NCBI GenBank assembly: GCA_022511065.1
Contig: JAFLSG010000005.1
Span: forward strand, 27,828-91,827
Direction of reading: 5' to 3'
DNA: 64,000 bases
Source of the DNA: Prevotella sp.
GTDB taxonomy: Bacteria; Bacteroidota; Bacteroidia; Bacteroidales; Bacteroidaceae
Shown one piece after another: positions 9,849-64,000 of this stretch. Each line of letters begins with the position of its first letter. Positions within the stretch are counted from its first letter, which is position 1. Under the pieces are notes generated by a model. The model was not told the origin of the DNA. It did no database searches and worked only from the letters and a program-made list of their open reading frames with translations. The translations under genes were made by a program, and so were the position numbers.

Positions 9849-10223
9849 AAGGATTTCATTGAAACCTGCCGTTCACAAAATCTGGAAGAGCCTGTATGGA
9901 GTTCCAACTGCGGTTTTGTAACCGTGACATTCAAGCGTCCGAACGCTTCCCAATCGTCGGGTGATACCCCCCAAGTACCCCCCAAGTACCGACCAAGTAC
10001 CGACCAAGTTGCTCTGTTGATACGCTCTATAGGTGAACAATACTTGACAATGAAGGAGATGGCTGCCCTTTGTGGTTTTAGAAGCCTTCCTCATTTTAGG
10101 GAAATGTATATACTTCCAGCTCTCTCCGACGGGGCAATTGAACGATTATACCCCGAACAGCCCAACCACCCAAGACAGAGATACCGTCTTACGGATATTG
10201 CCAAAGAGTGGAAGAATCAGTAA
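9849..10223 (+). pseudogene. C-terminal remnant of an AlbA_2/RecG-like ATP-binding protein (winged-helix tail)
   Basis: Frame continues upstream of the ORF Met: ...KDFIETCRSQNLEEPVWSSNCGFVTVTFKRPNASQSSGDTPQVPPKYRPSTDQVALLIRSIGEQYLTMKEMAALCGF...; resembles the extreme C-terminus of such proteins, no upstream body. Confidence 0.6.
9971..10010. repeat. 11-bp tandem repeat (CCAAGTACCNN x3.6) inside remnant gene
   Basis: CCAAGTACC at 9971, 9982, 9993; CCAAGTT at 10004; exact 11-bp spacing. Confidence 0.85.
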
Positions 10224-10335
10224 ATTGGAAGTTTTAAAATCGCTAACCAATGGATAGCGAAAATTCATCTCTTATACTGTCTTTTGGATTCCTCTTAAAA
10301 TTCCCCGTTTTTGCCCCTATTATATATAATAAGGT

Positions 10336-10504
10336 ACGCGCATAGGATTTTGTGCTCGACGATGCGCCATTTTGTGCTCCGTCGTGCAACTGTGGAGCAC
10401 AAATCGAGGAACTGTGGAGCACAAAATGAGCAGTCGCGGAGCACAAAATGGCGCACGATGGAGCACAAAATGAGGTGTCGTCGAGCTGCAAGTGGAAAGT
10501 CGTT
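10336..10504. repeat. Array A: 22-bp periodic repeats, core GAGCACAAAATG, two inverse then four-five direct units
   Basis: Inverse cores at 10348 and 10370; direct cores at 10395, 10417, 10439, 10461, degenerate at 10483; all intervals 22 bp within each block. Confidence 0.9.
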
Positions 10505-10521: not shown

Positions 10522-10618
10522 AAAAAGTGTTACTATAGTGTTTGCGACCCGTAAACACTATAGTAAGGAAGTCTAAATACCATACTTAGATGGCGTAAGT
10601 ATGGTGGTGAAAACTGAC
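10522..10618. repeat. Array B: 22-bp periodic repeats, core AAAYACTATAGTAA, one inverse then three direct units
   Basis: TTACTATAGTGTTT (10530-10543) inverted against AAACACTATAGTAA (10553-10566); related cores at 10575 and 10597. Confidence 0.8.
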
Positions 10619-46647: not shown

Positions 46648-46824
46648 ATCCCCCCGTCTCCTTTCATTTGAAGGAGGTATTCCTATCAGTCATGGGAATG
46701 CTTCCTACGAGTGAAAGAAATGCCTCCTATGGGGGTATAGGAGGCATCCCTTTGGGTCGTGGGAGATATTCCTTTGACCCGTAGAAAGTATTTCTTTCAC
46801 CCGTAGGAGAAGGGGTTACTCTTC
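46648..46824. repeat. Array D: ~7 tandem 22-bp units with quasi-palindromic 11-mer cores (GGARRYATTCC-like)
   Basis: Core centres near 46678, 46700, 46722, 46744/5, 46767, 46789, 46811; one 1-bp insertion near 46736. Confidence 0.85.
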
Positions 46825-63776: not shown

Positions 63777-63836
63777 TCCGATTCTTGCACATTCTTGTCG
63801 ATTCTTTCCGATTTATGTCGATTCTTGTCGATTTTT
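63777..63836. repeat. 10-bp tandem repeat, consensus GTCGATTCTT, six units
   Basis: TCCGATTCTT, GCACATTCTT, GTCGATTCTT, TCCGATTTAT, GTCGATTCTT, GTCGATTTTT at exact 10-bp steps. Confidence 0.9.
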
Positions 63837-63867
63837 TGCTGAATTATCGCCGGTTTTGGGCAGAATC

Positions 63868-64000
63868 CACGCTGCTTGCTTTCTGCATCTGTGTTGCTTG
63901 TATCTTGTACCCAATTCGTGTGTACCCTGTGCTCAATTCGTTTGGAGGCTGAATTCGATGCGTTTGAAGCCTCCAAACGGTGTGAATTCAGCCTCCAAAC
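63868..64000. repeat. Array F: 22-bp periodic repeats with 17-bp perfect inverted repeat, running off window end
   Basis: CAATTCGT at 63912/63934, CGATGCGT 63956; AGCCTCCAAAC at 63968 and 63990; GTTTGGAGGCTGAATTC 63940-63956 / GAATTCAGCCTCCAAAC 63984-64000. Confidence 0.75.

Follow-up and report, generated by a model that had tools for sequence, protein, structure and literature searches.

A dispersed non-coding element of 22-bp bricks in a Prevotella genome, as a candidate phased protein-binding array

Introduction

The closest known relative in kind of the repeat studied here is PINSR of Prevotella intermedia, a 188-bp dispersed, intergenic, apparently non-coding and lineage-specific repeat, with 177 to 184 copies, no terminal inverted repeats and no reported 22-bp period (PMC4755523). 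Our element, family F1, has one copy in the window (the whole 64,000-nt stretch of Prevotella sp. DNA that was analysed) and shares with PINSR its dispersal, intergenic position, apparent lack of coding capacity, length (∼190 bp), confinement to one lineage and absence of terminal inverted repeats, as well as the spurious small CDSs annotated across the repeat and a part in rearrangement. Its copies are fewer (about 25 to 30), and the two were compared by description, not by sequence; by the features compared, sequence left aside, PINSR is the same kind of thing as F1.

A second described system, BrickBuilt, is a MITE reported from Porphyromonas gingivalis and the related P. gulae; it consists of a leader and tandem 23-nt bricks, has 19 copies and carries terminal inverted repeats that match IS5-family elements (PMC4596501). 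Like F1, it is dispersed and intergenic, combines a leader with bricks that are gained and lost, has predicted stem-loops and breaks assemblies. Its bricks, however, are all direct and 23 nt long, whereas those of F1 are 22 bp long and stand in both orientations; IS5-type terminal inverted repeats were not seen in F1 copies, and the BrickBuilt brick (AGAYCATARTATCCTCTCRTRTG) is unrelated to F1.

Two further systems share traits with F1. REP/BIME elements of enterobacteria are ∼35-bp intergenic units, frequent at the 3′ ends of genes, that lack a fixed 22-bp phase and are tied to RAYT transposases. Like F1, they are dispersed, hairpin-forming, short intergenic units that alternate in orientation, but unit length and phase differ, and a RAYT/REP identity was rejected because the draft genome holds no Y1_Tnp gene (PF01797), the controls, E. 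coli among them, being positive. MuA and TnsB bind 22-bp sites that form short arrays in both orientations at transposon ends beside the transposase; length, arraying and the two orientations are common to F1, whereas no tie to a transposase was noticed here, and many dissimilar brick types occur within one genome. The literature searched, which covered few subscription papers, contained no further 22-bp arrays in Prevotella or Bacteroides, and we know of no protein that binds these bricks.

The array in the window and its copies

The copy in the window consists of a leader, units in both orientations around a centre, and a degenerate end, and is followed directly by a second, unlike array:

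10323..10341, + strand: leader, left end of the element, TATATAATAAGGTACGCGC (alignment of copies)
10336..10357, − strand: reverse unit 2, GAGCACAAAATCCTATGCGCGT, which overlaps with the leader (sequence and alignment of copies)
10358..10379, − strand: reverse unit 1, GAGCACAAAATGGCGCATCGTC (sequence and alignment of copies)
10380..10394, no strand: centre of 15 nt, CGTCGTGCAACTGTG, with CAACT almost invariant among copies
10395..10416, + strand: forward unit 1, GAGCACAAATCGAGGAACTGTG (sequence, repeat search and alignment of copies)
10417..10438, + strand: forward unit 2, GAGCACAAAATGAGCAGTCGCG (sequence, repeat search and alignment of copies)
10439..10460, + strand: forward unit 3, GAGCACAAAATGGCGCACGATG, with GCGCA kept in 14 of 14 aligned copies
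10461..10482, + strand: forward unit 4, GAGCACAAAATGAGGTGTCGTC (sequence and alignment of copies)
10483..10504, + strand: last, degenerate unit, GAGCTGCAAGTGGAAAGTCGTT, in which the likeness among copies tapers off (alignment)
10530..10611, no strand: second 22-bp array, of family F4, directly after the F1 element, TTACTATAGTGTTTGCGACCCGT / AAACACTATAGTAAGGAAGTCT / AAATACCATACTTAGATGGCGT

All the units listed by the first-pass annotation are found in the sequence, the forward ones starting at 10395, 10417, 10439, 10461 and, in degenerate form, 10483, and the reverse ones running over 10379-10358 and 10357-10336. The exact period of 22 bp, about two helical turns, that it had read there is confirmed by the sequence, by TRF, which also detected a period-22 array at this locus, and by a repeat search (spacings 22, 22 and 22). 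The element proved larger than first described, its leader starting at ∼10323. The strongest inverted pair in the array joins 10347-10381 with 10437-10471 (89% complementary; repeat search), and the same search finds an inverted pair in the F4 array (10530-10546/10550-10566).

The earlier view that the array is apparently non-coding holds for its copies as well, none of 26 lying under a home-made gene call. The nearest gene call to the window copy is 500 bp away, and an 82-aa antisense ORF over the array (10243-10491) has no Pfam match. The neighbouring 99-aa ORF at 9924-10223, which has only a Fic-like C-terminal domain (PF21247), is probably what is left of a gene; the 11-bp repeat TACCCMCCAAG (9965-10009) sits within this ORF and is therefore read as protein.

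The pattern GAGCACAAA-N13-GAGCACAAA has 29 matches in the 2.65-Mb draft genome, against 0 for the reversed control, and a BLAST search with the locus returned 22 copies of at least 55 bp besides shorter pieces, several of them at contig ends of this draft. Judged from these matches, F1 is very probably a dispersed element of 22-bp bricks, the window array being one of about 25 to 30 copies, scattered over the genome, of a ∼190-bp non-coding element. Several contigs terminate within F1 copies, and spurious small ORFs cross copies. Three contigs open with a common flank of ∼350 bp and then an F1 copy (L128, 1-560; L141, 1-510; L133, 1-518), as if they lay beside a long unassembled repeat, e.g., an rRNA operon or an IS.

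Alignment of 22 copies gives a common layout of leader, two reverse units, CAACT centre, usually four to five forward units and a degenerate end. The leader has forms like TATATAATAA[G/T]GTACGCGCGCG or, in aligned copies, TATATAATAAGGTACGCGCGCG, and is missing from two copies (L023 and L028). The forward units keep a fixed order, with position-specific spacers: unit 3 has GCGCA throughout, and unit 1 mostly has GAGGAACTG or GAGCAACTG. No left/right pair of terminal inverted repeats was seen in the alignment, which was read by eye and has a diffuse right end.

The 10 nt of each unit that had been called variable do differ among the units of one copy, but the same variants mostly occupy the same unit position in other copies; position-specific and recurrent, they are thus not random or hypervariable spacers. 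As brick order and spacers are fixed across copies, the locus spread as a block and was not built here by slippage, an origin also considered in the first-pass annotation. Arrays that already exist do change by slippage or recombination: L015 and L024 have common flanks, and L024 is without two units and has a unit 2 that looks fused from units 2 and 4, as expected if bricks exchange. In L028, which is the same locus as L145, bricks of F2, a different family, run in phase into F1 (TTTGAAGGCTTCAAACGAGGCG, TTTGGAGGCTCCAAACTATCCG, AATTTAGGCTTCATCGTGCACG, ATTTTGTGCTCCATCGTACAAC).

Within F1, the mean column identity over 14 copies is 0.93 in the 12-nt core and 0.77 in the spacer, and none of 20,000 column permutations gave a gap as large. 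Because the permutation takes columns as independent and the copies were picked by BLAST, which favours conserved parts, this difference is support, not proof; the conservation of the core could instead reflect gene conversion between bricks, higher mutation in CG-rich spacers or the picking by BLAST.

A 22-bp period across the genome and in relatives

We scanned 459 kb of the genome (∼17%), made up of the window and 20 other stretches, none of the latter picked for F1, by autocorrelation at lags 8 to 60; a match required local self-similarity, with identical letters at 41 or more of 66 positions. Lag 22 accounted for 17 of the 28 non-coding matches, lag 21 for five, lag 33 for two, and lags 10, 11, 44 and 46 for one each, whereas first-order Markov shuffles of the same 459 kb gave no matches. 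The excess at lag 22 over composition-matched shuffles, whose absence would have told against the earlier reading, is thus present in this sample, and 22 bp is the prevailing non-coding period in the sampled part of the genome. With ORF-based masking, lag 22 made up 13 of 20 non-coding matches in the same genome.

Outside this genome, a member of another genus (G424) had seven non-coding matches at lag 22 and two at lag 44 among 15. Under ORF-based masking, lag 22 took three of five non-coding matches in other genera of the family and three of 13 in other species of the genus, equal there to lag 8; other families of the order had none at lag 22 and two at lag 23, and 200 kb of E. coli had no matches at any lag. 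Loci selected on other grounds showed a similar pattern, in small numbers. Period 23, which is also the BrickBuilt period, was observed in non-coding arrays of another family of the order (L296, 9611 and 8231; CTCACAATCTTGTCAATTTTTAT) and of two members of the genus (L258, 14231; L260, 5740). Intergenic tandem repeats of 7 and 8 bp (TCAACTG, AACTCGTC) occur in other species of the genus (L245, 819, 8706 and 17576; L254, 140; L259, 8183).

At least seven brick types are present in the genome:

F1 brick: GAGCACAAAATG
F2 brick: GTTTGRAGGCTYCAAAC
F3 brick: GAATAC-N5-GTATTC with AGCCT
F4 brick: AAACACTATAGTAA
F5 brick: GAATGCNTCCTAYGAGT
F6 brick: GCACANNNTGTGC with AGATGCTTT
F7 brick: AAAGTAACACGGAATTT

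F1 to F3 have letters and phase in common and may form a single superfamily, while bricks in relatives have different letters (e.g., GAACTATTAGTTC and GAATGCTTATGGTATTC). The window holds two further arrays: one of F5 bricks at 46658-46819, which lies in a gap between converging genes and whose centre holds a strong hairpin (ATGCCTCCTAT/ATAGGAGGCAT), and one of F2 at 63821-64000 (GTTTGGAGGCTGAATTC), a 22-bp array that reaches the window end and adjoins 10-bp repeats (CGATTCTTGT).

Dyad symmetry goes with the period. Their own reverse complement was matched in 22-bp phase (p < 0.05) by 27 of 37 arrays in a hand-listed set, although the extent set automatically fitted the window's F4 array poorly; in the automatic set, such symmetry was found for 25 of 37 arrays with periods of 22 or 44 and 22 of 73 with other periods (Mann-Whitney p = 8e-6; Fisher p = 2e-4).

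What the bricks may do

Our preferred reading, held tentatively and with its mechanism inferred, is that F1 is a lineage-specific non-coding dispersed repeat whose bricks serve as a phased protein-binding array. Each brick would carry recognition half-sites, set on the same helix face at two-turn spacing; a dimeric or oligomeric DNA-binding protein would bind the array cooperatively, in either orientation; and a requirement to stay in phase would fix the period at 22 bp even as brick sequences diverge from one family or species to the next. Two marks of a binding array, a period of whole helical turns and a conserved site with a looser spacer, are both present, and the stronger constraint on the core makes protein binding plausible. 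We prefer phased DNA recognition because both orientations stand in one phase, the core is constrained, the phase is about two turns and signs of RNA covariation or of a terminator are lacking; the lag-22 excess, the dyad symmetry and the loss of whole bricks count in its favour too. Among the counterpoints, the arrays fold strongly as single strands, as a hairpin role would predict, and the period may be inherited if all families derive from one array, given the similar letters and phase of F1 to F3.

Phased DNA binding is only slightly preferred to a BIME- or REP-like role, itself somewhat unlikely, in which arrays, once transcribed, would fold near the 3′ ends of genes into long hairpins, much the same in either orientation, and so protect mRNAs or end them; hairpin geometry would then explain both the dyad symmetry and the 22-bp spacing. 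The folding energies agree with such a role: as single-stranded RNA the two strands of the window array reach −73.7 kcal/mol (z −6.0) and −70.0 kcal/mol (z −7.0), and 33 arrays have a median z of −5.3 against dinucleotide shuffles. Against permuted bricks, however, the median z is −0.6 (negative in 28 of 33), so that folding comes mostly from the symmetric bricks and only slightly from their order. The F1 consensus structure has a covariation term near zero, its long stem is disrupted in divergent copies, the best pairing partner shifts from copy to copy, and no terminator-like site was found at the window array; this weak covariation and the lack of such a site favour a role at the DNA level. 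Gene context is in line with hairpins near gene ends: by home-made gene calls, 12 of 19 arrays in gaps lie between co-directional genes, five between converging and two between diverging ones (gap bases: 63%, 13% and 24%), nine of the 12 co-directional ones are closer to the end of the upstream gene, and two F6 arrays occupy gaps between converging genes. The lean towards gene 3′ ends is nevertheless weak, and the window copy stands well away from the nearest gene call.

Neutral or selfish spread, by which non-autonomous PINSR- or MITE-like repeats would gain and lose bricks through slippage and recombination while keeping an ancestral period without function, is in our view unlikely. It would account for copies dispersed in this lineage only, for the brick loss in L024, for the in-phase junction of F2 with F1 and for the letters common to F1 to F3. 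It accounts less well for a core conserved above its spacer and for a period retained where sequence differs wholly between genera, and neither a transposase, the RAYT family being absent, nor terminal inverted repeats were identified. Outside this genome, the exact F1 pattern has 18 scattered matches among 85,488 genomes, with ∼8 estimated by chance, and one among 60 relatives, all of them pattern matches only; no near relative offering an orthologous empty site was found among 300 genomes searched, and Rfam gave only chance-level matches to the element.

A CRISPR-, TIGR- or integron-like array, with the 10-nt parts as acquired or programmable spacers, is suggested by the constant-plus-variable layout within one locus and is extremely improbable. 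Acquired spacers of the CRISPR/TIGR kind were rejected, since the spacers recur, mostly identical by position, in unlinked copies; units also stand in both orientations, and the array matched no phage or plasmid and gave one raw match among viral contigs. The first-pass annotation had likewise taken the array not to be CRISPR.

The leader has a distribution of its own. A 15-mer of stricter form taken from other F1 copies, TAAKGTACGCGCGCG, occurs in 49 of the 300 family genomes searched (control near 0); members of 13 genera carry it on its own, frequently next to TATATAATA and, by eye, mostly in intergenic positions (L171, L202), and in one genome (G399) the leader motif forms a full palindrome, CTATATATAATAAGGTACGCGC...GCGTACCTTATTATATATAG. 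Next to the 15-mer, 22-bp arrays in other genomes (L174, L180, L190) are not clearly above a rough base rate. An 18-mer leader was dropped as a genus-wide element head, many of its matches lying inside genes.

Implications

The same 22-bp spacing with different letters in many gaps, here and in relatives, points to a shared constraint on brick length. Beyond F1, it is conceivable, if doubtful, that intergenic arrays with a period fixed at 22 bp and with dyad-symmetric bricks, whose letters turn over from family to family and species to species, form a general class in the Bacteroidaceae, the period being kept by conserved but undescribed binding or copying machinery. Assembly and annotation are affected in any case, with contigs that end within copies and spurious small ORFs called across them. 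In Prevotella and Porphyromonas, repeats of this dispersed intergenic kind (PINSR and BrickBuilt) have so far been known case by case, with no function assigned. If the class is real, a common 22-bp period and dyad symmetry across unlike sequences and genera would unite such repeats, and their cause would become testable as a search for the factor that recognises or copies bricks of 22 bp.
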